Below, piece by piece: positions 6,460-31,478 of a stretch of DNA of 33,697 nt. This stretch comes from Pseudomonadales bacterium (GTDB lineage: Bacteria > Pseudomonadota > Gammaproteobacteria > Pseudomonadales > Azotimanducaceae): contig JAQWWC010000094.1 of NCBI GenBank assembly GCA_029249645.1, forward strand, positions 1 through 33,697, read 5' to 3'. Made by a program: the position numbers and the translations under genes. Position 1 is the first letter of the stretch. Each line of letters begins with the position of its first letter. The notes beneath the pieces were generated by a model. It was not told the DNA's origin. It saw only the letters and a program-made list of their open reading frames with translations, and made no database searches.

Positions 6460-6480
6460 CCGCGATAAACCGACACCCTT

Positions 6481-6514
6481 GGGTGGCCGCTATAAGCCTG
6501 CCACCCCCTTTTTT
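6481..6514 (+). terminator. Rho-independent terminator-like hairpin after the M43 gene
   Basis: GGGTGGC (6481-6487) pairs with GCCACCC (6500-6506), followed by CCTTTTTT. Confidence 0.7.
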
Positions 6515-6908: not shown

Positions 6909-7042
6909 GCCGTTGGTCAGCAGTCCCTCAGCAGCCTCTTATTAGAAGCTTCCAATTAGAATCAGTTAACTCGGGACACCGGACTAAAAGCATCAGAGCA
7001 GCTACGCCAGGTTGGTGGCGCCTCATGAAAACCGTCTAATTA

Positions 7043-7066
7043 CAAAAAAGGGGCTGGCTACCAAGC
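7043..7066 (-). terminator. Weak terminator-like element at the end of the nitroreductase gene
   Basis: Minus strand GCTTGG-TAG-CCAGCCCCTTTTTTG: short GC stem with one bulge plus T-tract; the stop codon sits in the loop. Confidence 0.35.
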
Positions 7067-7732
7067 ATCCACATGCATGACGGTCTCGACCGGCGGGCGA
7101 TAAGCGGGTTTAAAATCTGTGCCCTTGGTGTAGGCCATCGGAATCAACGCCACCTGCATAAAATCGTCATAGGGGATTCCAAGCAGATCCGCGATCGCTT
7201 TTTCATGCATCAAATGCAACGTGGTCCAGGCGGTGCCTAGTCCCCGGGCACGCGCCGCTAGCATAAAGCTCCAGGCCGCTGGCACAACAGAACCCAAGGT
7301 TGCGGTTTGCGACAGCACATTAGCACCCGCTTCATTGTCGGTTCGACCCGCAATACACGGAATCATCAATACCGGTGCCCGTCCCATATTCTCGCCCAAG
7401 AAATCCGCCGATGAAGCAGACCGCACTTGGCTTGAAGTTAAACTGGTGTCGGCACTATCGGCATGCAGTTTATGGATTGCAACTGGCATATCCTTGTAGA
7501 TCTCGAACGCCTGACGATAATACTCTCCGATCTGCGCCCGCTTATCGGGGTCTGTTATAAACATAAACTGCCAACCCTGGGCGTTCGAGCCAGAGGGTGC
7601 CTGCACGGCCATTTCCATACATTCTTTAACGACGCTCATCGGTACTGGCCGGTCGAAATCCAACCGCTTTCGAACAGCGCGGGTGGTGCTGAGCAGTTGA
7701 TCATTGGTAAGGTTTAATTGTTCGTGGGACAT
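7058..7732 (-). CDS. Nitroreductase family protein
   Basis: TTRAVRKRLDFDRPVP...AVQAPSGSNAQGWQFMFITD and ARARGLGTAWTTLH...IPYDDFMQVALIPMAY are typical of the FMN nitroreductase family. ATG at 7732 is preceded by AAGGAG. Confidence 0.9.
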   Translation of the reverse strand: MSHEQLNLTNDQLLSTTRAVRKRLDFDRPVPMSVVKECMEMAVQAPSGSNAQGWQFMFITDPDKRAQIGEYYRQAFEIYKDMPVAIHKLHADSADTSLTSSQVRSASSADFLGENMGRAPVLMIPCIAGRTDNEAGANVLSQTATLGSVVPAAWSFMLAARARGLGTAWTTLHLMHEKAIADLLGIPYDDFMQVALIPMAYTKGTDFKPAYRPPVETVMHVDAW

Positions 7733-7902
7733 ATACCGCTCCTTGGGAATTGGGTCGTTTCTGGTGCACATTCTAAGCCGATTGGGCAGCTCCAAGCCAG
7801 CCGTGGCATTCTTCGCCTTTTGTCACAACAGCGGCTTTATACGGTTCATCCAAAGATGCCGGCGACCGCTGGCGAACCTTGCGTCCTGAGCCTAGAACAC
7901 GG

Positions 7903-8937
7903 CTAGGGATCTTTTACTACCACTAGAGTCTTACCAAAATTTCCGCCCCGTAACATCTCAGTAAAGGCCCTGGGTGCAACCTCAAGTCCCGCCCGAAAGT
8001 CCTCTAAATAAACGATCTTTTGTTGCCGCAAGTAATCACCCATCAGTGCCAGAAACTCCGCTTGATGACTGGGCACATAGTTCCCCACGAACAAAGGATG
8101 CACTTGAACTTTTTGAGTCGTAAAAACAGGTTCCCCCACCGCCAACCAAGTATCCCTCGGCGATTGCCCGCTGGTGTCACCATATTGAGCAATTATGCCG
8201 CATAGGGTAATTCTTGCCTTGGCATTTAAAAGGGGCAGCACCCCTTCGAAAACCTTTCCGCCGACGTTTTCAAAATACACATCAACCCCATCGGGACACG
8301 CCGCCCGAAGGGCTTCTGGATAATCTGGGTCCAGATGCGAGACACAATCATCAAACCCTAAACGCGTTTTACAGAATGCGACTTTTTTGGGATCGCCTGC
8401 GATACCGACCACGCGCGCGCCGGCGAGCTTGGCCAATTGACCCGCGATCTGACCGACGCCACCCGACGCCGCCGAAACCACAACTGTCTCCCCAGCGATC
8501 GGCTGACACTGCACCAACATGCCCGCGTAAGCCGTTAACCCAAGCATGCCCATCACACCTAGGGCTGAGGATAAGGGCGCAAGCTTTGGATCCAAATACC
8601 GAGGGTGCATATAACCAAAATCGGTTACCCCGGCGCCCATCAATCCAAAACGTTGCCAGCCGTTGGTATTAAAAACATAGTCGCCCGCTTGGTAGTCCGG
8701 GTGGCGCGACTGCAGTACCCGAGACACCGTGCGACCATGGCACACACTACCAGGCGATTCCGCGCCAGTGCGCCTTCTGCCCCATTGATAAGGGTCCAAT
8801 GAAAGATAGAGTGTTTCTGTCAAACACTGACCGGCCCGGGGTTCTGGCGTACTTGACTCGACCCATTCAAAGTCTCCGTCTGTCGGCCAACCCGCGGCTG
8901 GCGTCCTGGCTAGGCGCCATTGTTGATTCATGCTCAA
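7903..8937 (-). CDS. NADP-dependent MDR-family oxidoreductase (CurA/prostaglandin reductase-like)
   Basis: 344 aa; LGMLGLTAYAGM, ETVVVSAASGGVGQIAGQLAKLAGARVVGIAG, VDVYFENVGG, GRTVSRV; no catalytic-zinc pattern seen. Confidence 0.9.
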   Translation of the reverse strand: MSMNQQWRLARTPAAGWPTDGDFEWVESSTPEPRAGQCLTETLYLSLDPYQWGRRRTGAESPGSVCHGRTVSRVLQSRHPDYQAGDYVFNTNGWQRFGLMGAGVTDFGYMHPRYLDPKLAPLSSALGVMGMLGLTAYAGMLVQCQPIAGETVVVSAASGGVGQIAGQLAKLAGARVVGIAGDPKKVAFCKTRLGFDDCVSHLDPDYPEALRAACPDGVDVYFENVGGKVFEGVLPLLNAKARITLCGIIAQYGDTSGQSPRDTWLAVGEPVFTTQKVQVHPLFVGNYVPSHQAEFLALMGDYLRQQKIVYLEDFRAGLEVAPRAFTEMLRGGNFGKTLVVVKDP

Positions 8938-10796: not shown

Positions 10797-11090
10797 CTAA
10801 CTCAATCCGGATCGCGCGGCATTCTTGCCCTTGATTGATAGCCGTTTCGATATGCCCTTAAGGCACAAACTCATTTGATCTGACACCGGATTGGTCACGA
10901 TGCCGTCGCTTAAGAGCCCACCAGAATCGTCATCAAAGGTCACCACAATCGGGCCTGGGTCCAAGCAATCAAGAAGGTGGTCGTCCGACTGGTGCGCAGC
11001 CTTGGGTATCGGCTCGACCGAGCCAATAATTTGTTGACGAACCCGGACATCTATATTTTTTTTGGACCATTGCTTTGGTGATCGGTTCAT
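10797..11090 (-). CDS. Hypothetical 97-aa ORF, 4-nt overlap with upstream nitronate monooxygenase-like gene
   Basis: ATGA overlap at 11087-11090; no family recognised. Confidence 0.35.
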   Translation of the reverse strand: MNRSPKQWSKKNIDVRVRQQIIGSVEPIPKAAHQSDDHLLDCLDPGPIVVTFDDDSGGLLSDGIVTNPVSDQMSLCLKGISKRLSIKGKNAARSGLS

Positions 11091-12509: not shown

Positions 12510-13526
12510 TCAGCCCTTTGGCGCTGCCTTAAGATCACCGAGCAGATCGCCCAAGGCAGTCTCTGACAGGCCTTCGGGTTGAATCGAAAGTCGATCCACA
12601 ATATCACCATAACGCGCGAGAAGCTGTGCGCCAATTTCATCGGGCGCACCGATGACTGCAAACTCAGCCAAGACTTCATCATCGACTAGTGCTGCCATCT
12701 CATCGGTTCGCCGAGCCTTCATCAATCGGTTTAGGGCCTCTTGCAGGTCCCCCCAACCATGGTGGTCGAGCACCATCTTGTACCCCGGCGTTGAACCGTA
12801 GAAAGCAATCCGGCCTCTCACCCGCTCAATAGCGAGCTCAATCGCCTCATCAGATTCACCGGTTGCAATCAACGGCGAAAAATCTATCGTGTAATCGGAA
12901 CGCTCGAGCTCAACGGCTTCTAATCCTCGCGTGATTAAGGGCAAGTTAACCTTGCGAATATAAGATTCCGTGGAAAAAGGGTGCATGATGAAACCATCAG
13001 CTGTTTCAGCGGCAACCGTTGTCATGAGCGGGCCGGTCGCCGACAGAAAAATCTGTGGCCGTCCAGCCTCGCTGTCAGCTGGCTTAAACGTCTTTGGCAT
13101 CAGGCTGTGTTGGTAGTACTCGCCAAAGAAATTGAGGGGGTCACCATCGTAAAAGTGATCGAAAATATGATCCAGCGCCTCGATGAACTCGCGCATTTGA
13201 GCGGGCCCATTATGCCAGGGCATACCAAACCGCCGGGTAATGTGCGCTTTGACTTGCGTGCCAAGCCCGAGGATGAAGCGCCCATTGCTGAAGGCGTTAA
13301 GGTCATGCGCCAACTGAGCGGTACTCATCGGGTTCCGCGCAAAGGCCACGGCCACGGACGTGATCAATTCCACCCGATCGGTATATTCAGCCGCCAGGGT
13401 TAATGCCAAAAACGGATCATGGTTTAATTCGGCAACTCGTAATCCGTCGTAGCCCAACGCCTCATAGTGTCTGGCTGCACGCCCGACGGTGCTCAAGTTT
13501 GCACTGATGGTGGCATCGATTTTCAT
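12510..13526 (-). CDS. LLM-class (luciferase-like), probable F420-dependent-type oxidoreductase
   Basis: 338 aa; GYDGLRVAELNHDPFLALTLAAEYT, VAVAFARNPMSTAQLAHDLNAFSNGRFILGLGTQVKAH. Layout recalls the TIGR03617-type family. GGAGGAAAG RBS before ATG. Confidence 0.88.
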   Translation of the reverse strand: MKIDATISANLSTVGRAARHYEALGYDGLRVAELNHDPFLALTLAAEYTDRVELITSVAVAFARNPMSTAQLAHDLNAFSNGRFILGLGTQVKAHITRRFGMPWHNGPAQMREFIEALDHIFDHFYDGDPLNFFGEYYQHSLMPKTFKPADSEAGRPQIFLSATGPLMTTVAAETADGFIMHPFSTESYIRKVNLPLITRGLEAVELERSDYTIDFSPLIATGESDEAIELAIERVRGRIAFYGSTPGYKMVLDHHGWGDLQEALNRLMKARRTDEMAALVDDEVLAEFAVIGAPDEIGAQLLARYGDIVDRLSIQPEGLSETALGDLLGDLKAAPKG

Positions 13527-15210: not shown

Positions 15211-16281
15211 ATGACACCGCCTGCTAGCGACCCCTTCCCTGAAGTCATTTTAGGCAACGCCAATCGGCGGTTTTCTGGGGTCACCTCGACCATGCTGCAA
15301 GTGCTCGCACGCCAACAAACCAAAGCATCCTTGGTAGTGCTCGGCGCCTGGCACTTACCAAGCGCAGTGCGGCGGGTACAATTTTTCACCTTGTTGCGGC
15401 AGCTTCGCAGCCAGCAGGCTAAAGGGCGCATCGTCGTGTTTCACGCGCGTCGAAACAACGAAATGATTCAGGGTCTGATCCTGCAATATTTCGCCCGCTG
15501 CACCGTGCGGCTTTTATTCACCTCCACCGCCCAGCGACACCACACTCGGTTTACCCGCTGGCTCATGAGACAGATGGACAGCGTGATCTCAACCTGTAAA
15601 GCCGCCGCCGACTACCTCAAAATACCGCCAGACAAGCTGATTCCGCATGGCATAGACACTGTTCGGTATCAGCCAACAATCGGCCCGGTTGCCTTGCCGG
15701 CTGACTTAGTCGCCCCAGCCCAACACTACATTGGGATCTTTGGGCGGGTTCGGGCACAAAAAGGGGTTGATGTATTGGTCACAGCAGCACTGCCCATCCT
15801 TGCCCATCACACCGATTGGGCCTTAATTATTGTTGGCGAGATCAAACCGGAGGAGCAACCCTTCGTCAATGACCTCAAACTGCAAGCCGAGCAAGCCGGC
15901 GTGCTGGATCGCGTCGTGTTTACCGGCCCGCGGTCCTTCGAGGAGTTGCCGAGACTCTTTGCCTGCATGTCGATCGTTACCGCTCTCAGCCGAAACGAGG
16001 GCTTTGGCTTAACCGTTCTTGAGGCCATGAGCAGCGCCAAAGCCGTGATTGCCAGTCGCGCCGGCGCTTGGCCAGATATTCTGACCCACGAAGAAGACGG
16101 CTTACTGGTTGATATCGGCGACGTGCCAGGCACTGAGGCAGCCCTTGAGCGACTGGTTACCGATAATGATCTTCGGTCACGATTAGCGGCCAACGGACGG
16201 CGGACGGTCCTTGATCGATATTCGGTTGACACAGAAGCCCAAGCTTTACTGGAACACTACCGGGCAATAACTCAAGGATGA
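15211..16281 (+). CDS. Glycosyltransferase family 4 (LPS core mannosyltransferase/LpcC-like)
   Basis: ILGNANRRFSGVTSTMLQVL N-terminus resembling LpcC-type GTs; GIFGRVRAQKGVDVLVTA, ALSRNEGFGLTVLEAMSSAKAVIAS GT4 motif. Confidence 0.88.
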   Translation: MTPPASDPFPEVILGNANRRFSGVTSTMLQVLARQQTKASLVVLGAWHLPSAVRRVQFFTLLRQLRSQQAKGRIVVFHARRNNEMIQGLILQYFARCTVRLLFTSTAQRHHTRFTRWLMRQMDSVISTCKAAADYLKIPPDKLIPHGIDTVRYQPTIGPVALPADLVAPAQHYIGIFGRVRAQKGVDVLVTAALPILAHHTDWALIIVGEIKPEEQPFVNDLKLQAEQAGVLDRVVFTGPRSFEELPRLFACMSIVTALSRNEGFGLTVLEAMSSAKAVIASRAGAWPDILTHEEDGLLVDIGDVPGTEAALERLVTDNDLRSRLAANGRRTVLDRYSVDTEAQALLEHYRAITQG

Positions 16282-16291: not shown

Positions 16292-17158
16292 TTAGGTTAG
16301 CTGATCAATCCCAGCCGGCGTCACGACAATTTTATGGCGACGCACGTCCGCTCGAATCCCTTGATTATGCGCCCAGCCCTCGGGTGACTCATAGCTCCTA
16401 GGATGGTCCAGATGCACCGTTATGGCGCTATATCGAATTTGCTTTGTCTTGATACCAGCATTGACAAGTCGTTCGCCAAACTCTCGGTCTAAGCCACCAT
16501 ATTGCAGACGCTCATCAAAGCCATTCACTAATAAAGCATCAGTCTTCCAACAGGAGGCATTATGCCCATTCCAGGTTGCCTTCGTCGGCGTCAATCGATT
16601 CAAGACCTTTGATAACAAGCCTTGAGCCCTTAATTTTAGTGATTTAAAAGGCATCGGCATACCTTTGGCCTTCAACCAGGCGGGATCAAAGCAACGCTGC
16701 GCTACCACATCCTCGTGCGTGATAGCCCGACTGACCGGCAACGCCAACTTAAAATAGCCACCACTCAAAAAGAATCCTGGCCGAGCGGCCGCCCGATGCT
16801 GGCTCACGAAATCCTTGCGCGGCACGCAGTCCCCATCCGTTAAAATCAAATAATCCCCAGTCGCTGCCAAAATGGCCCGATTTAGGATTTGGCACTTTTG
16901 AAAGCCGTGATCTTCATGCCAGACGTGACGCACATTCGTCTGACCTTGAGCACGCGCGGCATCCATGACGGCCTTCGTTTCAGGACCAGAGCCGTCGTCC
17001 GCAACGATCACTTCAAAATTCGAATCGGTTTGATTCGCGAATCCCCACAACACTTTCTCAAGCCATTTCGGGGAATTATAGGTTGTAAAAATAACGCTTA
17101 TTTTCACTTTTCGTCCTAAGGACTTTATTGAAACCGCATTATGGCGGATCTTGGCCAT
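16292..17158 (-). CDS. Glycosyltransferase family 2
   Basis: ISVIFTTYNSPKWLEKVLWGFANQTDSNFEVIVADDGSG, YLILTDGDCVPRKDFV, NGFDERLQYGGLDREFGERL (C-terminal galactosyltransferase-like region). Confidence 0.9.
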   Translation of the reverse strand: MAKIRHNAVSIKSLGRKVKISVIFTTYNSPKWLEKVLWGFANQTDSNFEVIVADDGSGPETKAVMDAARAQGQTNVRHVWHEDHGFQKCQILNRAILAATGDYLILTDGDCVPRKDFVSQHRAAARPGFFLSGGYFKLALPVSRAITHEDVVAQRCFDPAWLKAKGMPMPFKSLKLRAQGLLSKVLNRLTPTKATWNGHNASCWKTDALLVNGFDERLQYGGLDREFGERLVNAGIKTKQIRYSAITVHLDHPRSYESPEGWAHNQGIRADVRRHKIVVTPAGIDQLT

Positions 17159-17323: not shown

Positions 17324-17398
17324 CGGTAGGCGATGGGATGGACGGCGCAATCAAGCGGCCAACCGAGTACCTGCGCGTTGCACCACAGCGCTTTGAAG

Positions 17399-18574
17399 AT
17401 GCAGCCAACAATTGGGCTCGTGATTGATCCTTGGGATTTTCCATTCAATGGCACGGTGGTTTCGACCCGGCGGTTTGTGGCAGCCCTTTCGAATCAGTTT
17501 CACTTCAAAATTTTAAAAACGGGCAATGCGCCACACCAAATTGCGAAAAACGAATTTCATTTTCCGAAGCTATCCATTCCAGGCGCCAATCGGATTATTG
17601 ACCAGATGCAAGCCCCACTGGCGCGTCCAAACCGTCGATTACTCGAGGTCGTTATCGCCGATTGTGATCTGATCCATGTGCAATACCCATTTCTTTTGGC
17701 ACACCAAGCCATCAGAACAGCACGATTGCTTGGCAAACCCGTCATCAGCTCCTTTCATGTTCAGCCTGAAAATATCCAACGCAATCTCAGGCTTAATCAA
17801 GCCTTTGTGACCCGTTGTCTCTACAGACTGTTTGTGAGTCAGTTTTATCAAGCATCGGATCGCGTCATCGCACCCTCTGAATTTGCTAAAACCCTCTTGA
17901 CCCAACACGGCGTATCCCGGCCGATTGATGTACTTTCTAACGGCGTCACCTCCGATTTTTTTGCCAGCAGCCGCCGCGATATCCGATCTGATCAATTCCA
18001 AATATTAAGCGTTGGCCGCCTTGCGCAAGAGAAGCAACAATCGTTATTACTCAAGGCGGTCGCCCGGTCACAGTATCGAGCCAAAATCCAGGTGACACTT
18101 GCAGGCACAGGCCCCGCCGAGATGGACCTCAAGGCGCTCGCAGCAAAACTCGGTGTAAGGGCCACAATCGGCCGTGTAACGGACGACCAACTTCATGACC
18201 TCTATGCAACAGCCGACGTCTTTGTGCAGTGTAGCCGCGTTGAATTAGAGGGCATGAGCGCGCTGGAGGCTATGGCCGCTGGCTGTCCAACGCTACTCAA
18301 TCGAACCGAAACCAGTGCCTTATCCGAGCTCATCCAAGACCCACTTAGCGCCTTTACCGATGAAGCGCCCATTATGCTCACGCAAAAATTAGATGCGTTG
18401 TTATCGAATCCTGACGCGCGGCAATTTCTGACTGACCGCAATAAAGCTTTTGCTCTGACCCGCCGTCATGAAGAATCGGCAGCTCAGCTGGCCAACCTCT
18501 ACCGGCACACCCTACTTGGCGAGTCAAATTCCGTTGACGGCGAACGCGTTGCCACCGACGGTCAAACCTCATGA
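17399..18574 (+). CDS. Glycosyltransferase family 4 (glycolipid-synthase-like)
   Basis: MQPTIGLVIDPWDFPFNGTVVSTRRFV, SSFHVQPENIQRNLRL, ILSVGRLAQEKQQSLLLKAV, CSRVELEGMSALEAMAAGCPTLL. ATG at 17399 preferred over the ORF-track start. Confidence 0.87.
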   Translation: MQPTIGLVIDPWDFPFNGTVVSTRRFVAALSNQFHFKILKTGNAPHQIAKNEFHFPKLSIPGANRIIDQMQAPLARPNRRLLEVVIADCDLIHVQYPFLLAHQAIRTARLLGKPVISSFHVQPENIQRNLRLNQAFVTRCLYRLFVSQFYQASDRVIAPSEFAKTLLTQHGVSRPIDVLSNGVTSDFFASSRRDIRSDQFQILSVGRLAQEKQQSLLLKAVARSQYRAKIQVTLAGTGPAEMDLKALAAKLGVRATIGRVTDDQLHDLYATADVFVQCSRVELEGMSALEAMAAGCPTLLNRTETSALSELIQDPLSAFTDEAPIMLTQKLDALLSNPDARQFLTDRNKAFALTRRHEESAAQLANLYRHTLLGESNSVDGERVATDGQTS

Positions 18575-21099
18575 CGGGGCGCTTAACCCGTTGGCTCACA
18601 GCTGCATTAACCCACGCTAAACTGCTGGTGTTCGTTTGCATCATGCTAGGCGTTTCCGGCGCGAGCTTATTTTTACTTCAGGGCCGGCTGAACGCCGATC
18701 TTGGCCAGCTCATTCAACCCAAGGGTGATCAAGACTGGTATCAAAGCAACAAAGTCTTCGAAGCTGCTTTTCCCATATATCGACAAACCGCTGTGGTCGT
18801 GGTTCGCAGCAGGGATGCGTTTGCTGCGGAGACTGCAACCCAATTGCTCAAAGCGGCGTTTGAAGCACAAGGTGCATTTGACCAAGTCTTCGCCCCCGCG
18901 GTTGAGCCCTTTATCCAAACCCGCAAACTGTATTTTCTTGAGCCCTCGGACCTCGATAAATGGTTGTTGGGCACTGAATTTAATTTCGGCGTACTGCAGC
19001 GACTCAGTGAACAGCCGACACTTGCCGCGACGCTGCTCATTATTGCGGATATGCTGGGGGTTCAAAGCGGGCAGCCCATGCCCATAACCCTGCAACACTC
19101 AATAGAGGGTCTGCTCAAAGGCAAGCCCAAGGTTACGAGCTTTTATCCGCTTCTGCCCACCGAACAAACTGAGTTTTTCAACCTCATTATCGTTAACGGC
19201 CGTCAGAGCCTCAATGAACCGCTACCGAACCAGCAAATTGTCAGGGCGCTGCAGTCGATTATTAAGCAACAAGTCTTGCCCGAATCGGTTGCGGTTGAAT
19301 TAACAGGCGAGGTCGTCTTAGCGCATGAGGAAATCAGCGCCGCTCTCAACGGCATCGAAATAGCGGGGTTCGCATCAATCCTGATTTTGGGCGTTATATT
19401 GCTCGTCGGTATCGGCGACGTCAGAATTATCACGGCAATTTTTTTAGTGCTCCTCACAGGGGTCGGCTTGACACTCGGGTATGCAACACTCGCCGTCGGC
19501 AGCTTTAATACGCTATCGATGCTCTTCGTGGTGATGTTTTTTGGGCTTGGCGTTGATTTTGCAACCCACCTTGCCTTGCGCCTTCAAGCCGATCAAGCAA
19601 CCAATGCCGATGCTATGATCACAGCAATCCAAGACATGGCGCCAGCGCTCGCACTCTGCACCCTGACATCCGCCATTGCCTTCTTGTCCTTCACGCCAAC
19701 GGCCTACACGGGAATGGCCGAGTTAGGCATTATCTCGGCCGGGGGTATGGTCATTGCGCTCCTGTTGACCTTGCTGATGATTCCGGCTTTGTTGACCCTG
19801 TGGCCGTCCTTAAAAACGCCGCCGCCTTTAACCTTTTTGTCCGTAAAGTGGCTGCCAAAGTATCAAACGCTTTTAACCCTTGTCCTTCTGGCCGTCATGC
19901 CTGGCGCACTATATTTTGCCAGCCATTTGGAATTCAATTACAGCGTGCTCAGTATGCGCGACGCTGACTCCCCAGGTATGAAAGCTCTCACCCGCTTACA
20001 GGAGAGTGGACAACAGACCGACTATAGCGTCATTTTACTTGCAGACACGGCCGAACAAGCCAGCCGACTCAAAACACGACTGACCGCACTCGAATCGGTT
20101 GCCAGCGTCCAAATTCCAGCAGATGTCATCCCAACAGGGCAAACCGATAAGTACCAGCGGATCATGGCTGTCGCCGAGCTCTATCGTGATTTATGGACGC
20201 CGCCCGAACTTGATGAGCAGACACTCCCGTTATCGAGCGCTCGTGAATACCTTGAAGCCCAGATGCCCAGTTTAAAAGGCCAACGTCTTCAAATCGCGCG
20301 GCAGATTGCTACCTTCGCCAAGACCCTCGAAACCGATCCAACAAACCTCGCTTTATTTGATGCATCCCTTGCCCAACAATTACATCGATCAAACCAAGAT
20401 CTGATGGACCTCCTTGAGGCGACGCCCTTTACCTTCAGCGCGCTCCCCAAACCGTTTCAGGAGCGACTCATCAGCCCGCAAGGGCAACACTTGGTTTCTG
20501 TACAACCCCGAGTCGCGCTGACCGACAAGGCCAAGACCGACCGGTTTATTAATGACATTCGCTCTGTCGAGCCAATGATTGCAGGGCGCAGTGCGGTTGA
20601 ATGGGGCATTGGTGAGGTCGTGGTCAATGCCTTTCGAGAAGCCATTGTCCTGACGCTATGTGGGGTCATGATTTGCTTAATCCTATATTTTCGAAACGTT
20701 TTGACTGCGTGCCTCGTTCTGGTACCGATTGCATTCACCTTAATCCTCACCTTTGCTGTGAGCAGTTTTTTGTCCTTAAGTCTTAACATGGCCAACATTC
20801 TCGTCGTGCCGCTCATCATAGGGCTCGGCGTTGACTCCGGAATCCACGTAACCCACCGATTCTTTAAAGGCGGCGCACTAAAACATCAACGAGCCACCCG
20901 TCGCGCGGTCCTCATCAGTGGTCTGACGACCCTTGGCACCTTCTTTTCGCTGATTTTAAGCCCACATCAGGGCGCTGCCTCAATCGGCCTGTTACTGACA
21001 GTCGCGATTGCTTGGCTGTTGCTACTGAGCCTATTTTTATTACCGAGCCTTTTGTCCTTTTTCAGTCATCGCGGTTTACTCCAGGCACGGGCTGTATAA
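18571..21099 (+). CDS. RND/MMPL-family transporter, HpnN-like
   Basis: 842 aa; two TM blocks each with a periplasmic loop; MFFGLGVDFATHLALR and PLIIGLGVDSGIHVTHR are RND TM4/TM10-like motifs. 4-nt ATGA overlap with upstream GT4. Confidence 0.88.
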   Translation: MTGRLTRWLTAALTHAKLLVFVCIMLGVSGASLFLLQGRLNADLGQLIQPKGDQDWYQSNKVFEAAFPIYRQTAVVVVRSRDAFAAETATQLLKAAFEAQGAFDQVFAPAVEPFIQTRKLYFLEPSDLDKWLLGTEFNFGVLQRLSEQPTLAATLLIIADMLGVQSGQPMPITLQHSIEGLLKGKPKVTSFYPLLPTEQTEFFNLIIVNGRQSLNEPLPNQQIVRALQSIIKQQVLPESVAVELTGEVVLAHEEISAALNGIEIAGFASILILGVILLVGIGDVRIITAIFLVLLTGVGLTLGYATLAVGSFNTLSMLFVVMFFGLGVDFATHLALRLQADQATNADAMITAIQDMAPALALCTLTSAIAFLSFTPTAYTGMAELGIISAGGMVIALLLTLLMIPALLTLWPSLKTPPPLTFLSVKWLPKYQTLLTLVLLAVMPGALYFASHLEFNYSVLSMRDADSPGMKALTRLQESGQQTDYSVILLADTAEQASRLKTRLTALESVASVQIPADVIPTGQTDKYQRIMAVAELYRDLWTPPELDEQTLPLSSAREYLEAQMPSLKGQRLQIARQIATFAKTLETDPTNLALFDASLAQQLHRSNQDLMDLLEATPFTFSALPKPFQERLISPQGQHLVSVQPRVALTDKAKTDRFINDIRSVEPMIAGRSAVEWGIGEVVVNAFREAIVLTLCGVMICLILYFRNVLTACLVLVPIAFTLILTFAVSSFLSLSLNMANILVVPLIIGLGVDSGIHVTHRFFKGGALKHQRATRRAVLISGLTTLGTFFSLILSPHQGAASIGLLLTVAIAWLLLLSLFLLPSLLSFFSHRGLLQARAV

Positions 21100-22385: not shown

Positions 22386-23408
22386 ATGAAAATTCTAACT
22401 GGCGTCCCCGCCGAGCGACTCAATGATATCCCCAGCCTAGCCCAAGCAGCAGAACGCAACGGTTTTTCGGGCTTATCAACACAAGAAAACCGTCACAACC
22501 CGTTTTTACCGCTGGCCATAGCGGCCGTACACAGCCAGCATCTTGAACTGCGAACCAATGTGGCAATTGCATTCGCCCGCAGCCCGATGGTAGCCGCCGG
22601 TCTAGCGTGGGATCTGCAATTCGCCACCGCCGGCCGTTTCGTCTTGGGCCTGGGTAGCCAAGTGAAAGGACATAACCAGAGACGGTTCAGCGTCGCCTGG
22701 TCTCCGCCCGCGCCCCGGCTTCGTGAATATATCGGAGCAATTCAGGCAATTTGGTCCTGCTGGCGGGATGGCACACCGCTGAACTATGAGGGCAAGCACT
22801 ACCAATTCAGCCTTATGACCCCAAATTTTACACCCGAGCCGCTAACTGGTGCCTTACCAAAATTACACATTGCGGCGGTCGGGCCGGCGATGATGAAAGT
22901 TGCTGCAAGCGCTTGCGATGGCGTGATGCTGCATGCCTTTTGCACGCCAAAGTATTTAACAGAATCCATCATACCAGGCTTAAACCAAGGCCTCACCGCT
23001 CGCGGGTATGCTCGCGCGCAATTTGAGATCTCCGGTGGTGGTTTTGTGGTCACCGGCGCCAACCAAGCGGCAATCGACAAACAGTTTGAGTGGGTTCGAG
23101 CACGAATCGGGTTTTATGGCTCAACACCCTCTTATTGGCCTGTGCTTGCAAGTCATGGCCTGCAAGACTTAGGAGAAGAGCTCAATGCTTTGTCTAAAGC
23201 AGGCCGATGGGATGACATGACACGACGGATCTCGGATGACCTAGTACATGAATTCGCAGCGGTTGCGCCCTATGACCGCCTCAAAGCGACCATTGAAGCG
23301 CATTTTGGCGGACTGGTTGATTGCATCAGCTTGCCTGCCGATACCCCACCGGAGCTTGTTCAGGATTTGAAGACTATTGCCTGCTTGTACCAATCGAGTC
23401 CGGCATGA
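22386..23408 (+). CDS. LLM-class (luciferase-like), probable F420-dependent-type oxidoreductase, paralogue of 12510..13526
   Basis: NPFLPLAIAAVHSQHLELRTNVAIAFARSPMVAAGLAWDLQFATAGRFVLGLGSQVKGHNQRRF aligns with the first LLM protein. Confidence 0.88.
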   Translation: MKILTGVPAERLNDIPSLAQAAERNGFSGLSTQENRHNPFLPLAIAAVHSQHLELRTNVAIAFARSPMVAAGLAWDLQFATAGRFVLGLGSQVKGHNQRRFSVAWSPPAPRLREYIGAIQAIWSCWRDGTPLNYEGKHYQFSLMTPNFTPEPLTGALPKLHIAAVGPAMMKVAASACDGVMLHAFCTPKYLTESIIPGLNQGLTARGYARAQFEISGGGFVVTGANQAAIDKQFEWVRARIGFYGSTPSYWPVLASHGLQDLGEELNALSKAGRWDDMTRRISDDLVHEFAAVAPYDRLKATIEAHFGGLVDCISLPADTPPELVQDLKTIACLYQSSPA

Positions 23409-24400
23409 ATATCGGCGTGCTCGGCGGTGGCAGCTGGGGAACCACAGTTGCGCATTTATTGTCTCGTCGATACAACGTCACACTTTGGGCTCGAAATTCC
23501 GATATTGTGACCGAAATCAACGCCCACCATACCAACCACCGCTACCTTTCATCCGCGCAGCTATCGCAAAAGCTGCAAGCGACCGATCGGTTACAGGACG
23601 CAACAAACGGTCAATCGGTTTTGGTTATGGCCATTCCAGCGCAAAATTTTAGAGCGGTACTGACCGACGCAGCGGATTACTTAGACCCTTTGACGCCGAT
23701 AGTGTCCCTTAGCAAGGGCTTAGAGTTTTCGACCGGCGCACGGATGACCGAAATCATTCAAGCCGTTTGTCCCGAACATCCTGCTGCAGTTCTAACCGGA
23801 CCCAACTTAGCTCGGGAAATTATGGCTGGTTTTGCGGCGGCAAGCGTTTTGGCAACCCCCAACGCAGCCGACCAAAGCCACTTGCAAAGCATTTTCCACT
23901 CCCCCCTGTTCCGGGTGTATACCAATGATGATGTCATCGGTTGCGAGCTTTGCGGCGTTCTCAAAAACATCATTGCGATCGCTGCGGGCATGAGCGATGG
24001 CCTAGGGGCTGGCAACAATACCCGTGCTGCGATTATTACGCGGGGCTTGGCAGAAATGACCCGCTTGGGCTTGGCGATGGGCGCAAAATCCGAGACGTTT
24101 TCTGGGCTGGCGGGAATGGGCGATTTGGTCACAACTTGTACCAGCGCGCAATCTAGAAATCACACGGTCGGTTTCAAACTTGGGCAGGGCGACAGTATCG
24201 ATAACATCATTCAAGAGATGTTCATGGTGGCCGAAGGCATTAAAAGCGCGCCGGCTGTCATGCGGCTGGCTGAGCAATTTGGTGTGGAAATGCCCATTGC
24301 GGCGGAGGTCATGCAAGTTGTTACAGGACAGCGCGACGTTCAGGGCAGTTTCAAAGCTTTGCTTCGAGCCGGCGTGGGCCGTGAGGACGAACCCTTCTAG
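23405..24400 (+). CDS. gpsA: NAD(P)+-dependent glycerol-3-phosphate dehydrogenase
   Basis: MNIGVLGGGSWGTTVAHLL, VSLSKGLE, LTGPNLAREI, ELCGVLKNIIAIAAGMSDGLGAGNNTRAAIITRGLAEM, FSGLAGMGDLVTTCTSAQSRN. ATGA overlap with the upstream LLM gene. Confidence 0.96.
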   Translation: MNIGVLGGGSWGTTVAHLLSRRYNVTLWARNSDIVTEINAHHTNHRYLSSAQLSQKLQATDRLQDATNGQSVLVMAIPAQNFRAVLTDAADYLDPLTPIVSLSKGLEFSTGARMTEIIQAVCPEHPAAVLTGPNLAREIMAGFAAASVLATPNAADQSHLQSIFHSPLFRVYTNDDVIGCELCGVLKNIIAIAAGMSDGLGAGNNTRAAIITRGLAEMTRLGLAMGAKSETFSGLAGMGDLVTTCTSAQSRNHTVGFKLGQGDSIDNIIQEMFMVAEGIKSAPAVMRLAEQFGVEMPIAAEVMQVVTGQRDVQGSFKALLRAGVGREDEPF

Positions 24401-24576: not shown

Positions 24577-26841
24577 ATGTCCAATCTATTTCGCTTCATC
24601 GGCTGCTGTAGCCTCAGTTTTCTCGCCATCCACAGCGCAAGTCTCGCGGCCGCTGCTGATGCGTCAGACCGTGAAAGCGCTCAGATTGAAGAAATTACGA
24701 TTGTCGGCTCGACCGCAGGTGCAAAACAGATGACCGGCGCCGCACGTTTTATCGGCCCGGAGCGTTTGGAAGCTTTCCATCACTCAGACATCCAAAAAGT
24801 ATTACGCGAAGTGCCTGGCGTTTCCCTTCAAATCGAGGACGGCTATGGCCTGCGTCCAAACATCAGCATTCGGGGTGTTGCCAGTGAACGCAGCAGCAGA
24901 ATTACATTACTCGAGGACAACATCCTGATTGCACCGGCGCCTTATTCAGCGCCTTCGGCTTATTATTTTCCGACAATGGGCCGGATGCACGCAGTCGAAG
25001 TTTTAAAAGGACCCGCTGCAATTTCGCAAGGGCCTTACACCATCGGCGGTGCCCTAAACCTGGTTTCAACCCCCATCGCCAACCGCGCGAAAATGGACCT
25101 GTTTGCAGAAGCTGGAAGTGACGCGACCCAAAGGCTACATTTTACTGCGCAGCAACCGCTGAGTGAACAAGCAGTCCTAATGATGGACGCGCATCATTGG
25201 CGCTCTGATGGCTTCCAAACAATCGACCGCAGCGATCGCGAAACAGGTTTGTCCATAACCGACTATACGGCCAAGCTTCGGGTGCGATCCAATGATGCCA
25301 GGCATGAATGGGTGGCAAAACTGCAAACGACGCAACAGTCGTCCAATCAAAGCTATTTGGGTCTGACGGATCAGGATTTCGGACAATCCCCCACCCGCCG
25401 TTACGGGTTATCAGAACTGGATTCCATTGAGACCGATCATAAACAGCAGGTGCTCTTCTACCGGTTTCAAGCAACGCCAACAACCGAGCTAGAGGTCGCG
25501 CTGTACAATAACGAGCATGCTCGAAATTGGTTTAAGACCGAGAAACTTGATATTGATGGCAGCCAGAACGCGGATTCTTTCGCTGGCAAAAATTGGCTCA
25601 CGGTCATTCAGACCATTAATACGGCTGCTGATTCGGGTCTTGCAGAACCCTATCAAAGTATTTTGGACGGCGCAGCGGACACGGCTCCGGGTAGCATCGG
25701 ACTTCGAGCCAATGCCCGCGAATATTTCTCCCGAGGCGTTCAGGCCAAGCTCACCCACAGCCTTCAAACCGGATCGATTGATTATGATTTTGAGGCCGGC
25801 CTGCGCCTGCACAAGGACGGCGAAGACCGACTCCAACGCGATAGCACCTACCACCAAAGCGGTGGTCAACTCCTGCTCGATGACCTCGGGCGCTGGGGTA
25901 ATGCGGGCAATCGATTACAAACTGCTGAAGCTGTAGCCGCCTATTTTCAAAGCCGTATCACATTCAAGTCCGTTTTGATTTCACCGGGACTACGCCTTGA
26001 GCGGATTCGCCAGGATCGAACGCGCTGGGAAACTCGCGCGGATCGAACAACCGATCCCGCAGACCGCAGCCTTGGTAACCTGCGTGACCAGCGCAGGAAC
26101 AAAGTGCAGGTACTGCTGCCCGGCGTTGGTTTGCTATGGCCGCTCTCGCCAGCAGTATCCGTCGTTGCAGGCGTGCATAGAGGGTTTACGACGCCGAGTA
26201 ATGCGCCAGGGGTAGAGCCCGAAACCGCGCTGAATTATGAATTGGGCTTTAGAACCAGTGGGCGAACAGCGATCGAGGCAATCTATTTTCTCAGCGACTA
26301 CGACAATCTACTTGGCCAGTGCACGGCATCCTCAGGTGCACAATGCAATCCGGGCGACAGCTTCAACGGCAATGCTGCAACGGTTCGGGGCCTTGAACTT
26401 ACGGCGCAACGCGATTTCGCAACCCAAGCCGGACTAACCTTTTCGGTGAATCTAAACTACACCTACCTTGACGGTCATTTTGACACTGACATCGCCGACA
26501 CAGCCTTCTTTGGCGACGTCCAAGCAGGGGATCCGATCCCCTATTTACCGCAACATCAGTTGCATATTGGCCTTGGTTTCCTAACCAGTCACTGGTCACA
26601 CTATTTGGACTTTAGCTATCAGGATGCCGTGTGCGTCAAGGCGAGCTGCAATCCGTATGAAACTACCGAATCGCAGGCCACGCTCGACCTGTCCAGCCAT
26701 TATGAGTTGAACGCTCGAACCTCGATTTTTGCAAAGATCGAAAACTTGGCGGATCAAACCAACTTAGTGGCCCGCCAACCCTATGGTGCACGACCGAACC
26801 GAGGTCGCACTATGGCCTTTGGCTTCAGCGTTTCGCTCTAG
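24577..26841 (+). CDS. TonB-dependent receptor, FecA-like
   Basis: Signal peptide; plug IQKVLREVPGVSLQIEDGYGLRPNISIRGVASERSSRITLLEDNI, VEVLKGPAAISQGPYTIGGALNLVS; C-terminal AFGFSVSL with terminal aliphatic residue. Behind a Fur-like site. Confidence 0.92.
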   Translation: MSNLFRFIGCCSLSFLAIHSASLAAAADASDRESAQIEEITIVGSTAGAKQMTGAARFIGPERLEAFHHSDIQKVLREVPGVSLQIEDGYGLRPNISIRGVASERSSRITLLEDNILIAPAPYSAPSAYYFPTMGRMHAVEVLKGPAAISQGPYTIGGALNLVSTPIANRAKMDLFAEAGSDATQRLHFTAQQPLSEQAVLMMDAHHWRSDGFQTIDRSDRETGLSITDYTAKLRVRSNDARHEWVAKLQTTQQSSNQSYLGLTDQDFGQSPTRRYGLSELDSIETDHKQQVLFYRFQATPTTELEVALYNNEHARNWFKTEKLDIDGSQNADSFAGKNWLTVIQTINTAADSGLAEPYQSILDGAADTAPGSIGLRANAREYFSRGVQAKLTHSLQTGSIDYDFEAGLRLHKDGEDRLQRDSTYHQSGGQLLLDDLGRWGNAGNRLQTAEAVAAYFQSRITFKSVLISPGLRLERIRQDRTRWETRADRTTDPADRSLGNLRDQRRNKVQVLLPGVGLLWPLSPAVSVVAGVHRGFTTPSNAPGVEPETALNYELGFRTSGRTAIEAIYFLSDYDNLLGQCTASSGAQCNPGDSFNGNAATVRGLELTAQRDFATQAGLTFSVNLNYTYLDGHFDTDIADTAFFGDVQAGDPIPYLPQHQLHIGLGFLTSHWSHYLDFSYQDAVCVKASCNPYETTESQATLDLSSHYELNARTSIFAKIENLADQTNLVARQPYGARPNRGRTMAFGFSVSL

Positions 26842-27899
26842 CGAGCGACCAATGTTGCGTCGGGCAGAGCCTCTAGGTTCGTTTTTTCGAACAAGAAGTG
26901 TCCGACCATCCAGGTTTCCCCGCCTTGAACCGCAAACATTTCCTGACAAGCCATCACAAACATTCGCCACCTCTGCCAAAGGATTGACGCAGAGTCTGGG
27001 TTATCCGAGGCCGCCAACGTCTCTAAGATTTCCGCTTTATATTGATCGAGGTTGCTCAACCAGGCCGCGCACGTTTTCGCATAATGCTGGCCATTCACCA
27101 ACCACACTTTGCGTTGCTGCAACGAGCCCTCGAACAGTTTCGGCAAGTCCAACGATGGCATTAATCCGCCCGTAAAGAAGTGCCTCGCCATCCAATCTTC
27201 TTCGCTGTCATCTTCGAAGAAATAGGGCTGATTACGATGGCAAAAAATATGGAAGAACAATAGTCCGTCCAAGGCTAGCCAGCCTGATACCTTATCGAAG
27301 AGGCGCTGGTAGTTACGCATATGTTCAAACATTTCAATCGATACCACTCGATCGAATTGGCTGTCTGGCTCAAAGTCATTCATATCCTGCGTTAACACCG
27401 TAATATTGGTCAAACCCCTCGCCTGCGCCTCAGCCTCAATAAAGAGCCTTTGCGAGTGCGCATTACTCACTGCCGTAATATTGCTATCGGGGTAGGCTTC
27501 AGCCATAAACAACGTGAGTGATCCCCAACCGCATCCCAGCTCTAAAATTTGCTGATTCGGACCTAATTGGGCGCGCTCGCAGGTTAGTTTCAGCATCGCA
27601 GCCTCTGCCTCAGCAAGGCTCGCATTCTCTTGCTCAAAGAGCGCACAACTGTACTTTAGATGGGGGCCCAACATGCGCTGAAACACGGCAGTTGGTACTT
27701 CGTAGTGCTGGTGGTTCGCATCCGTTGTCCCGACCGCCAAATCAGACGCCCTCATCGACTCGGCAAAGGCCGCCTTGCCTGCGGCCGTCGCATTCACCTT
27801 ATCTTGTGCGAGTCGCTTAACCAGCAACCGCCGCATCCCAAACCTAAGCAATGGGTCCGGAATCCAACCGCGTTCCGCCCAGTCCACTAAATTAATCAT
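26838..27899 (-). CDS. SAM-dependent methyltransferase of the CFA synthase superfamily, coclaurine N-methyltransferase-like
   Basis: ANHQHYEVPTAVFQRMLGPHLKYSCALFEQENASLAEAEAAMLKLTCERAQLGPNQQILELGCGWGSLTLFMA, FDRVVSIEMFEHMRNYQRLF. ATG at 27899 (MINLVDWAERGW) gives an 8-nt overlap with cfa. Confidence 0.86.
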   Translation of the reverse strand: MINLVDWAERGWIPDPLLRFGMRRLLVKRLAQDKVNATAAGKAAFAESMRASDLAVGTTDANHQHYEVPTAVFQRMLGPHLKYSCALFEQENASLAEAEAAMLKLTCERAQLGPNQQILELGCGWGSLTLFMAEAYPDSNITAVSNAHSQRLFIEAEAQARGLTNITVLTQDMNDFEPDSQFDRVVSIEMFEHMRNYQRLFDKVSGWLALDGLLFFHIFCHRNQPYFFEDDSEEDWMARHFFTGGLMPSLDLPKLFEGSLQQRKVWLVNGQHYAKTCAAWLSNLDQYKAEILETLAASDNPDSASILWQRWRMFVMACQEMFAVQGGETWMVGHFLFEKTNLEALPDATLVAR

Positions 27900-29157
27900 G
27901 TGCTGCCACCTCAAGTTGAAATCCCGGTAAATGTAACTGCATATGAACGCAGCCGATTGCCCGCTGCCGAAACCCAGCTTCGCAATAACAAAAATAGTAT
28001 CGCCACATGCGCAGGAACGTCTCGGACAACCCCAGCGCTTTGATTTCAGTCAGATTGGCCTCGAACGCGTCACGCCATCGCGACATGGTTAAAGCATAGT
28101 GCGGCGTTATATCTTCTAGTCCATAAACTCTAAAGCCTGCTCGCTCTGCAGCACTCACCTCCACCAACGTCTTGACGCACGCCAGTGCACCGCCCGGAAA
28201 AATGTAGCGCTGTATAAAATCAACCGAGTGCTTGGCGGCCTCAAATCGTTGTTCCGCAATTGTTATGGCCTGCAGCAACATGCTGCCACCCGGCTTGAGG
28301 AGGCTCGCGCAAACCTCGAAGAACTGCGGCAGATAGTCGAGCCCCACTGCCTCAATCATCTCGATTGATACGAGCTTGTCATAGCGGCCTTCAAGGCTTC
28401 GATAGTCCGATTGTAATAAGGTCACTCGATCCTCAAGACCTGCGGCGGCAACGCGCGCCTTGGCTTTTTGAAACTGCGCATCCGAAATCGTGGTTGTGGT
28501 TACTTGGCAGCCATAATTACGCGCAGCAAAACAGGCAAACCCGCCCCAGCCCGTACCAATTTCTAAGAGATGGTCCGAGGCGCACAGCTTAAGTTTCTGA
28601 CAGATCAGATCCATTTTCTGTTCTGACGCCGTCCCCATCGATTGCGTTGCATCTTGAAAATAGCCTGAAGAATACATCATCGTGTGGTCTAGAAATTGTT
28701 CAAAAAAACGATTCCCAAGATCGTAATGCGCTGCAATATTACGCCTGCTTTGCGCAGGCGTGTCCCGGTTGAGCCAATGCTGCACGCGCAACATAGGCTT
28801 TTTAAAAACGGCCCAACCCCCGTCCAAGTTACCCATCACTTCACGATTCTTTAAAAACAACTCAAGGGTAGCCAGGAGGTCTGAACACATCCAATCGCCA
28901 TCCATATAAGCCTCGGCTGCGCCAAGAGAGCCACCTAACGCCATCGATTGATAGGCTTTTGGCGACAGAATGGTGACCGTGATCGATTCCTGCTCTGGCG
29001 CAGATCCCACGTCAAGCAGCTGGGTCTTTCCTTCATAGAGCTTTAACCGTCCAACCATTATTTTTGATAGCACGGTCACAACTCGTTGCCGCCAGAAACT
29101 GAACGCCAGGTTCTTGTCAGCCGTTACGACCTTATTGTGATCCTTATCGATCGTCAT
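27892..29157 (-). CDS. cfa: Cyclopropane-fatty-acyl-phospholipid synthase family protein
   Basis: AAHYDLGNRFFEQFLDHTMMYSSGYF, HLLEIGTGWGGFACFAA, KLVSIEMIEAVGLDYLPQFFEVCASLLKPGG, QRYIFPGGALAC. Confidence 0.93.
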   Translation of the reverse strand: MTIDKDHNKVVTADKNLAFSFWRQRVVTVLSKIMVGRLKLYEGKTQLLDVGSAPEQESITVTILSPKAYQSMALGGSLGAAEAYMDGDWMCSDLLATLELFLKNREVMGNLDGGWAVFKKPMLRVQHWLNRDTPAQSRRNIAAHYDLGNRFFEQFLDHTMMYSSGYFQDATQSMGTASEQKMDLICQKLKLCASDHLLEIGTGWGGFACFAARNYGCQVTTTTISDAQFQKAKARVAAAGLEDRVTLLQSDYRSLEGRYDKLVSIEMIEAVGLDYLPQFFEVCASLLKPGGSMLLQAITIAEQRFEAAKHSVDFIQRYIFPGGALACVKTLVEVSAAERAGFRVYGLEDITPHYALTMSRWRDAFEANLTEIKALGLSETFLRMWRYYFCYCEAGFRQRAIGCVHMQLHLPGFQLEVAAHD

Positions 29158-29165
29158 AGTTTCAC

Positions 29166-29912
29166 CTACCGATTCTGATTAGGGTGACCGTGAAAAGGCA
29201 CCTGCTTTAAAAACAATTTAAACGCTTGCCAATAAATTCTACCGATGACCTGTGCCGCGTGAAATGGACGGCTCAAACAATATCGACTGATATTCCTTGA
29301 TGAAAAGCGCTGTGCCACAAGGCTAAATTTGGCGCTGAAAAATACCTGCCCCAATCGACTCACTTGGATCTGGGCGCGGCAGGTGGTTCCAGGCGCAGAT
29401 AATTGCCAAAGGTATTGGGTATCCATGGGCATAAATGGCGAAACATGAAACTGTTTTTGGGACGTCATGTCAGCACTTATGGGCACCACATAAACGTATC
29501 GCTCATTCCAGGGCGTGTTGTGCACTTCCGCGACCACCTGAATCAAGCGATCATCTTGAAAGCAGTAAAACAATGCAATGGGATTCAGTAACGTGCCAAA
29601 GGATCGCCAATTGGCAAGCAACGCAATCTGTCCATCGAACGTGGTACCGGTTTTTTCCTGAATTTGATGAACGACCTCGTCTCGAAGCGTGCGATGCGAG
29701 GGTAGATAATCTTGACGATGGAAGCTGACCCAATTGAATCGTTCAAAGGATAACAATCTCGAGCGAGCGCAGAGATCAGGAATTTCCTCAAGATCACAAT
29801 AAAAAGTCGCAAAGTTATAATCAAACCGGTGCGCTTTCGGTGAGCTCCTGACGTGGGTCAGCGCGCCTTCATAGATAGCGGCGTCAAGCACCACTGGCGA
29901 CCAAAGCATCAA
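29166..29912 (-). CDS. DUF1365 family protein
   Basis: IYEGALTHVRSSPKAHRFDYNFATFYCDLEEIP, FGTLLNPIALFYCFQ, VVAEVHNTPWNERYVYVV, KQFHVSPFMPMDTQYLW; classic DUF1365 pattern and gene context. Confidence 0.93.
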   Translation of the reverse strand: MMLWSPVVLDAAIYEGALTHVRSSPKAHRFDYNFATFYCDLEEIPDLCARSRLLSFERFNWVSFHRQDYLPSHRTLRDEVVHQIQEKTGTTFDGQIALLANWRSFGTLLNPIALFYCFQDDRLIQVVAEVHNTPWNERYVYVVPISADMTSQKQFHVSPFMPMDTQYLWQLSAPGTTCRAQIQVSRLGQVFFSAKFSLVAQRFSSRNISRYCLSRPFHAAQVIGRIYWQAFKLFLKQVPFHGHPNQNR

Positions 29913-31119
29913 TCACCCGAAGGCCACTGACCACCCCATCTTCGTGAAAACCATATCGCCAATAAGCACCACAGTAATGAGTGCGACCGACACCCGAAAT
30001 TTCCCCATGGCGGCCTTGCGCAGCCAGCATTGCAGCATCAAAAATAGGGTGCTCGTAATGCACGCGTTTCAGCACAAGGTTCTCATCAATGGTGCCCGCA
30101 TCGTTCATGGTCACCAGCACCGGTTGAGTGGACGCAAAGCCTTGTAGCCGATTCATATAGTAAGTCAGGCTGGCTTGGGTTGCGCCGAGCGGTGCATGAT
30201 AGTTCCAGCTCGCCCATACCTCAGGGCGCACCGGCATGACACTTGCGTCCTGATGCAGGACCACTTCATTACCCGAATACCCCATCGTACCAAGGACTTC
30301 GCGCTCCGCCGACGAAGCATCGGTCAGTACCGCGAGCGCCTGCCCTGAGTGGCATGCAAACACAACCTGATCGAACGCTTCGACGGTTTTGGTTGCGCCA
30401 GACGTAACCAAAACGCGGGTCTTCTCACGCGTGACGGCTAGCACGGGACAACCTAATCGCAGGTCCTGTAATCGATCCCCAATAACTTTGACGTATTGAT
30501 CAGAGCCGCCCTGAACGACATACCACTGAGGACGATCCACAAGGTCCAGCAAACCATGATGATTAAAAAACTGGCTCAGCATACCGATTGGAAACGCTAA
30601 GATACCGTCATCGCCCGTGGACCAAATAGCGGCCGCCATCGGCACTAAGTAATCAAATATGAAGGCGTCCCCAAACTTCTCGCGCCGACAAAAATCAATC
30701 AACGGTTCCGGGTCAGTCGCGAGCACCAACCGAGCGATGCGGTTAAACCTTAAAATATCCCGCAACATCTTCCAAAAACGAGGCCTTAATAAATTCGTTT
30801 TTTGGGCAAACATGGTTTTAAGGCTGTGACCGTTATATTCTAAATTTGGACGCTTTAGGCTAAAGCTCATCTCAGTCGGCTGACCCTTGCAGCCCAGGCG
30901 CGCTAGCAGCGCCATAAAATTCGGGTAGGTTCGATCGTTGTAGACAATAAATCCCGTATCGATTGCCCGCGAGGACCCGTCAATTTCAAGCCGGTGAGTT
31001 TGAGTATGCCCGCCTAGATAGTCATTTTGCTCAAAGAGCGTGACCTCAAATTGATCTGCAAGTCGCTCTGCAACGGTCAGGCCCGAAATGCCGCCGCCCA
31101 CTATCGCAATCTTTTTCAT
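29884..31119 (-). CDS. FAD/NAD-binding amine-oxidase-like oxidoreductase (COG2907-type)
   Basis: MKKIAIVGGGISGLTVAERLADQFEVTLFEQNDYLGGHTQTHRLEIDG, DTGFIVYNDRTYPNFMALLARLG, WNYHAPLG; C-terminal YCGAYWRYGFHEDGVVSGLRV. Confidence 0.93.
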   Translation of the reverse strand: MKKIAIVGGGISGLTVAERLADQFEVTLFEQNDYLGGHTQTHRLEIDGSSRAIDTGFIVYNDRTYPNFMALLARLGCKGQPTEMSFSLKRPNLEYNGHSLKTMFAQKTNLLRPRFWKMLRDILRFNRIARLVLATDPEPLIDFCRREKFGDAFIFDYLVPMAAAIWSTGDDGILAFPIGMLSQFFNHHGLLDLVDRPQWYVVQGGSDQYVKVIGDRLQDLRLGCPVLAVTREKTRVLVTSGATKTVEAFDQVVFACHSGQALAVLTDASSAEREVLGTMGYSGNEVVLHQDASVMPVRPEVWASWNYHAPLGATQASLTYYMNRLQGFASTQPVLVTMNDAGTIDENLVLKRVHYEHPIFDAAMLAAQGRHGEISGVGRTHYCGAYWRYGFHEDGVVSGLRVIDALVASGA

Positions 31120-31444
31120 CAAACAACCTTTGTAGCGCCAAGCTTTATGACCAACGAACCCGTTCATTGTGCCTGACAGGCCCCGAATCACAACCCCTTA
31201 CCGGCCAGGTTTTCAGAAGATATCACGGTTTAAAGCTCGCAAAATTCGCGGCGGCAAAAACACTCACATGCTGCGCCTATCACAGTGTTTTAGCGCACTT
31301 AACGCCACCGGCCTAGCAGCGATTATCACGCCGGCGCCCTAAGCGCTTACCTGTGCCGTTTCTTCGAGCGTAAATGCTTGTTGGGTCGTGCCCGTCCGCT
31401 CGCCTTTACCGGCATCAAACAACGCCCAGAAAATGCTCGATCAC

Positions 31445-31472
31445 TTGACCCTAATGGCGACCCACTTATACT
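31445..31472 (+). promoter_or_regulatory. Sigma70-type promoter TTGACC-N16-TATACT for the desaturase
   Basis: -35 TTGACC 31445-31450, -10 TATACT 31467-31472, 6 nt before the ATG at 31479. Confidence 0.6.
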
Positions 31473-31478
31473 GTTGGT

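Follow-up and report, generated by a model that had tools for sequence, protein, structure and literature searches.

The stretch of DNA analysed here (the window; 33,697 nucleotides, contig JAQWWC010000094.1 of assembly GCA_029249645.1) is one contig of the draft genome of a Pseudomonadales bacterium of the Azotimanducaceae (3.7 Mb in 364 contigs, 95.5% complete; the host genome, G000), whose near relatives bearing names are metagenome-assembled genomes of marine Gammaproteobacteria/Pseudomonadales. It carries a gene for a glycosyltransferase of family GT4, followed by one for an HpnN-like transporter of the RND/MMPL superfamily (Table 1), and a sequence-only reading had proposed that the two form a module for the synthesis and transport of a glycolipid. 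Direct reading of the letters bears out the starting point of that proposal, namely that the stop codon of the GT4 frame and the start codon of the 842-aa RND frame share an ATGA. The longest GT4 frame opens with an ATG at 17333 and closes with the TGA at 18572-18574, and the start at 17399, giving 391 aa, fits best because sequence conservation sets in at residue 3-4 counted from there. The overlap is not due to chance, since all 35 homologous pairs measured, which come from several marine gammaproteobacterial families (Halieaceae, BD1-7, K189A, OM182), have an in-frame start codon for RND within the range of -26 to +16 nt relative to the end of GT4, and 13 of them have one at exactly -4 or -1. 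Promoter and terminator scans gave a signal no different from that of shuffled sequences.

Table 1. Features of the GT4-RND pair, in positions of the window.
Feature	Position	Strand	Remarks
GT4 glycosyltransferase	17399..18574	+	391 aa; GT-B fold; related to the cholesterol alpha-glucosyltransferase of Helicobacter; Pfam PF13439/PF00534
S118-N125 'SFHVQPEN' motif	17750..17773	+	N-terminal (acceptor-side) domain of GT4; conserved in 34 homologues
EX7E catalytic motif of GT4, E282...E290	18242..18268	+	E282 in 34/34, E290 in 29/34 homologues (Q in 5)
ATGA stop/start overlap (translational coupling)	18571..18574	+	direct reading
HpnN-like RND/MMPL lipid transporter	18571..21099	+	842 aa; 12 transmembrane (TM) helices and two periplasmic domains (model)
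D329, TM4 GxGxD motif	19555..19557	+	candidate proton relay; D in 41/41 GT4-clade, 30/30 Mla-clade and 25/26 HpnN sequences
D755, TM10 GxGxD motif	20833..20835	+	second aspartate; D in 40/41 GT4-clade and 29/30 Mla-clade sequences; in HpnN A 18/26, S 3/26
H762, TM10	20854..20856	+	characteristic of GT4-linked clade (H 40/41); Mla-clade mostly D/E/K/Q/R, HpnN mostly I/V/M

Gene neighbourhoods, read in relatives and at 78 named loci, show that the GT4-RND pair is a real unit, conserved well beyond close relatives. Among 41 loci whose RND protein belongs to the same clade as that of the window, GT4 lies directly upstream in 33; a contig end truncates three others, and the remaining five have no adjacent GT4. 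Of the 38 loci that are not truncated, 33 thus carry the pair, spread over many genera and several families. Within 58 relatives searched, the 14 genomes with this GT4 all have it adjoining this RND gene, and the same holds for 6 of 6 bearers among 343 genomes of the order Pseudomonadales. At one locus with no adjacent GT4 (L066) the genes near the contig end are fragmentary. In Halioglobus pacificus both genes are present, unlinked, with GT4 elsewhere in the genome (501 bits; L172:5600-9005), where it adjoins genes for a PhyH-like dioxygenase and a DUF1295 protein, the latter a homologue of the one that follows the RND gene in Luminiphilus and HTCC2080. The trees of the two proteins have 21 of 26 splits in common and no well-supported conflict, and their pairwise distances correlate with r = 0.905 against a permutation maximum of 0.32, a value to which shared organismal descent contributes. 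A literature search, with most subscription journals outside its reach, returned no paper describing the pair. Both families are known; what is new, as far as this search reached, is their combination, together with the RND clade and the cargo that it probably carries.

The upstream protein is a genuine GT4 glycosyltransferase, with Glycos_transf_1/Glyco_transf_4 domains scoring far above the Pfam cut-offs, an EX7E motif and an AlphaFold2 model (pLDDT 90.9, pTM 0.88) whose fold matches GT-B/GT4 enzymes. Within the N-terminal motif, S118, H120, Q122, E124 and N125 are invariant and F119 almost so in 34 homologues. The comparison with diacylglycerol glucosyltransferases made in the sequence-only reading was right about the family and less so about the nearest enzyme: judged from sequence comparison, the closest solved relative is a cholesterol alpha-glucosyltransferase and not a diacylglycerol enzyme. 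The best match among solved structures is 3qhp, the catalytic domain of the Helicobacter pylori enzyme (HP0421/CapJ), both by profile (134 bits, runner-up 58) and by single-sequence search (80 bits, next 28), and a search of the host genome with the 3qhp sequence returns, at E <= 0.01, the GT4 gene alone. A sugar-domain tree separates the window-type proteins, the Helicobacter enzyme and Firmicutes relatives from eight other GT4s, a small outgroup picked by availability, with support of 100/99. The FHVQPEN motif recurs in an uncharacterised protein of Subdoligranulum, which shares 44% identity with the Helicobacter enzyme over the sugar domain.

An alternative option is that the enzyme makes a diacylglycerol glycolipid of the monoglucosyl-diacylglycerol type, which the RND protein exports, with no sterol involved. 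The top two NCBIfam matches of the window protein are indeed lipid glycosyltransferases (IagA/BgsA and GlcN-phosphatidylglycerol synthase), and these models as well as Mgs and Dgs are matched, weakly and consistently, by 9 of 9 members tested. Moreover, the glycerol-3-phosphate dehydrogenase gene gpsA is found close to the pair in two different settings, at 23321-24400 in the window and directly upstream in BD1-7/Cellvibrionales, and in one case a GT4 relative from Lactobacillus adjoins a plsC-type acyltransferase gene. However, scores with the diacylglycerol-type models stay at 86 bits or less against cut-offs of 400-500 (IagA/BgsA 85.8 vs 460, Mgs 36 vs 400, Dgs 38.5 vs 500), among enzymes of solved structure the cholesterol glucosyltransferase is nearer by a clear margin, and gpsA, standing beside htpG and a sixA-like gene, may reflect an old housekeeping gene order. 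We keep diacylglycerol as a possible acceptor, put forward tentatively and about as probable as a sterol-like one.

Apart from the marine proteins, GT4s encoded on plasmids of Firmicutes from gut and food (Lactobacillus L178, L179 and L181, Subdoligranulum L180) are 36-44% identical to the Helicobacter domain and could be candidates for sterol or lipid glycosylation; CGT-like candidates have been identified in Oscillibacter too, according to a review (PMC12667688).

The RND protein had been described as HpnN-like, which holds for its fold and profile; yet profiles and trees place it in a clade separate from HpnN itself. It scores 523.4 bits with the HpnN model TIGR03480, below the cut-off of 751.85, and 361.0 bits with the stricter NF052374 (cut-off 1100), while five relatives of the same clade reach 445-614 bits with TIGR03480. 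The model of the sterol transporter BstA gives 131 bits (cut-off 1400), and PF03176 (MMPL) matches two stretches at 92 bits, well over the Pfam cut-off, in keeping with membership in the MMPL/RND superfamily. Among solved structures, its profile finds HpnN with 412 bits, followed by MmpL5/MmpL4 with 36 bits or less, and the AlphaFold2 model (pLDDT 84.8) ranks HpnN first (5khn/5khs/6wu0; E ~1e-39), ahead of MmpL4/5/3 and then Patched and NPC1-type proteins. The tree of HpnN-like proteins falls into a hopanoid HpnN clade (26 sequences, support 100), a clade linked to MlaC and MlaA (30 sequences, support 93) and a GT4-linked clade (41 sequences, support 100), which includes the window protein and has the Mla-linked clade as its sister. 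Besides the residues of Table 1, R673, E677 and G679 mark both non-hopanoid clades and are lacking in most HpnN sequences.

Nor does the protein fall among multidrug transporters: the AcrB/2A0602 (HAE1) models give just 17-22 bits, and AcrB enters the list of fold matches only at rank 45. A related explanation is that it serves as an efflux pump for hydrophobic compounds or drugs, like AmeD of the HAE3 family, with GT4 modifying the pumped substrate or being unrelated to it. AmeD, an HAE3-affiliated RND protein, has been linked to monoterpene tolerance (PMC6394551), and the HAE3 model TIGR00921 matches the window protein at 111 bits. This is well under the cut-off of 352, however, and genes for outer-membrane or periplasmic partners, present in AmeABCD, are not found next to the pair; since HpnN, and not a drug pump, is the nearest solved relative by both sequence and fold, we consider an efflux role improbable.

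As every kind of comparison puts HpnN first, it could also be argued that the protein is an ordinary HpnN handling hopanoids acquired from neighbouring organisms. The sequence-only reading had seen no genes for hopanoid synthesis in the window, and this extends to the host assembly, which, at the completeness given above, yielded no homologue of shc or of squalene/phytoene synthase (SQS_PSY); among the relatives searched, those whose RND falls in the GT4 clade likewise lack squalene-hopene cyclase (SHC). A strong SHC did turn up in a single relative, G018, which serves as a positive control, as its RND gene lies two genes from that of SHC and its product groups with HpnN. With bearers devoid of SHC, both HpnN cut-offs missed and the protein outside the HpnN clade, the hopanoid reading was rejected as very improbable, and independence of the pair from hopanoids is the best explanation.

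In the sister clade, the RND gene accompanies those of MlaC and MlaA, often with TRAP-transporter genes upstream, in the conserved set TAtT-DctP-(DctQ)-DctM-MlaC-MlaA-RND, and often with a sulfatase-family gene downstream (L105, L106, L107, L111, L115-L117, L123, L126, L139 and others, with RND near 6001-8600 of each locus). It is apparently a lipid-trafficking system combining TRAP, Mla and RND components, and our literature search found no paper linking HpnN with MlaA and none on such a TRAP-Mla-RND set. MlaA (PF04333) itself was found neither in any genome of the window genus (G000-G014, n = 15, several of them more than 90% complete) nor in the related G035; most related genera have it.

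Two further glycosyltransferase genes, a GT4 at 15211-16281 and a GT2 at 16292-17158, flank the pair in the window, which could hint at a locus for surface polysaccharide or lipopolysaccharide (LPS) core, where the paired GT4 would act on LPS core or O-unit and the RND gene would be incidental. This explanation is weakened because conservation of both flanking genes ends with the genus, and other lineages have GT4-RND without them; the two GT4s, paired and flanking, do not group together either, and we rate the LPS locus as quite improbable. A recurrent third partner did not emerge from the neighbourhoods. Genes for GpsA, a fatty acid hydroxylase, a DUF1295 protein, TRAP/TAtT components, AMP-ligases and SBP5/ABC transporters are each limited to one or two lineages, so none of them belongs to the core. 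Several genes of lipid type (fatty acid hydroxylase, DUF1295, AMP-binding ligases, TAtT) nevertheless stand beside the pair in separate lineages, which speaks for a lipid-related unit. TAtT, the TRAP T-component, is encoded just upstream of it in L080 and L127, and the sterol-binding BstC belongs to the same superfamily (PMC10942540), a point in favour of a sterol-like acceptor. As TAtT scores above its cut-off in 34 of 58 genomes of the family, its presence alone says little and only adjacency counts. The DUF1295 searches gave no informative relative.

On balance, we consider it fairly probable that GT4 and RND constitute a unit for lipid glycosylation and transport, whatever the acceptor, as supported by the computed pairing, co-occurrence, matching phylogenies, folds, clades and conserved catalytic and transmembrane acidic residues. 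The proposal of the sequence-only reading is partly supported: it came through the computational tests named there for its refutation, with its HpnN label and its diacylglycerol analogy corrected. In the mechanism that we propose, GT4, as a member of the cholesterol-alpha-glucosyltransferase group, would work on the cytoplasmic face of the inner membrane and transfer a hexose, probably glucose from UDP-glucose and with retention, to a hydroxyl group of a hydrophobic acceptor. The resulting glycolipid would then be picked up by the RND protein from the periplasmic side of this membrane and carried in the direction of the outer membrane, with protons passing through D329 and D755 as the driving force. 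That the GT4 product is the RND cargo is, like the direction of transport, the sugar and the acceptor, something we infer.

Both families have characterised members that act on or carry polycyclic triterpenoids, namely hopanoids in the case of HpnN, sterols in that of BstA and cholesterol in that of the Helicobacter enzyme. For this reason a sterol-like acceptor from the surroundings is a leading candidate, about level with diacylglycerol, an assignment by analogy that should be taken as tentative. Free-living marine Pseudomonadales that make neither sterols nor hopanoids might take up environmental, e.g., algal, sterols, glucosylate them by GT4 and use the dedicated RND transporter to insert the resulting steryl glucosides into the envelope, a scenario that we regard as rather doubtful; no paper on steryl glucosides together with marine bacteria came up in our literature search.

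Several points weigh against the proposed unit or against a sterol as its acceptor. In L091, HTCC2080 and L131 a GT4-clade RND was found and no GT4, so the transporter can do without its partner, and the neighbouring lipid genes differ between lineages and could be incidental. The structure 3qhp spans the nucleotide-sugar domain only, and the inference about the acceptor rests for that reason on the N-terminal motif held in common with the Subdoligranulum protein. Furthermore, with neither sterols nor hopanoids made by the host, a sterol acceptor would have to be imported. The fatty acid hydroxylase was rejected as a sterol enzyme, its nearest match being OlsE of ornithine-lipid metabolism (100 bits vs a cut-off of 475) and not the sterol desaturases; no solved relative of it was found.

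Other genes of the window were noted in passing. A membrane protein of the YeiH family (PF03601; 21154-22077) is encoded directly downstream of RND in part of the genus and is absent from other lineages. Near the pair lie two genes for luciferase-like monooxygenases (12510-13526 and 22386-23408), the first of them of the F420-dependent type TIGR03617 (395 bits vs a cut-off of 278). Positions 26838-32381 hold a fatty-acid-modifying cluster with two CMAS-type methyltransferases, DUF1365, an amine-oxidase-like flavoprotein and a fatty acid desaturase. A 97-aa open reading frame (10797-11090) without Pfam match, which has relatives in the genus, shares a 4-nt stop-to-start overlap with a nitronate-monooxygenase-like gene.

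HpnN-like proteins are readily taken for hopanoid transporters, and the present clade, well supported and tied to a glycosyltransferase, occurs in genomes without hopanoid synthesis. Its partner enzyme gives a clue to what is transported, so that the question of the cargo is directly testable in culturable bacteria. The pair predicts an undescribed route by which many ocean Pseudomonadales may make and move a sugar-coated, possibly sterol-like, membrane lipid. Should the acceptor be a sterol, bacterial sterol glycosylation would extend from Helicobacter and Borrelia, the latter using an enzyme unrelated to the Helicobacter one, to common ocean bacteria, and algal sterols would be linked to bacterial membranes.

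Compared with known systems, most GT4 members are 30-37% identical to HP0421 over the 164-residue sugar domain (Halieaceae members 23-26%), but they are paired with an RND gene and their hosts are free-living marine bacteria. The mycobacterial MmpL glycolipid exporters, RND proteins too, transport lipids synthesised by enzymes encoded nearby, and they form the second-best fold family; they differ in RND branch, lipids and hosts. With BstA/BstB/BstC of Methylococcus (PMC10942540) the pair shares an HpnN-like RND, although that of the window is only distantly BstA-like and comes with a glycosyltransferase and no sterol synthesis genes. HpnN (TIGR03480/NF052374; PDB 5khn, 6wu0) has the fold, the length and the TM4 aspartate motif in common with the window protein, at 25-27% identity over the structure alignment, whereas the latter stands below both cut-offs in a separate clade, in a genome without hopanoid genes, keeps the TM10 aspartate and has a GT4 glycosyltransferase as its partner.

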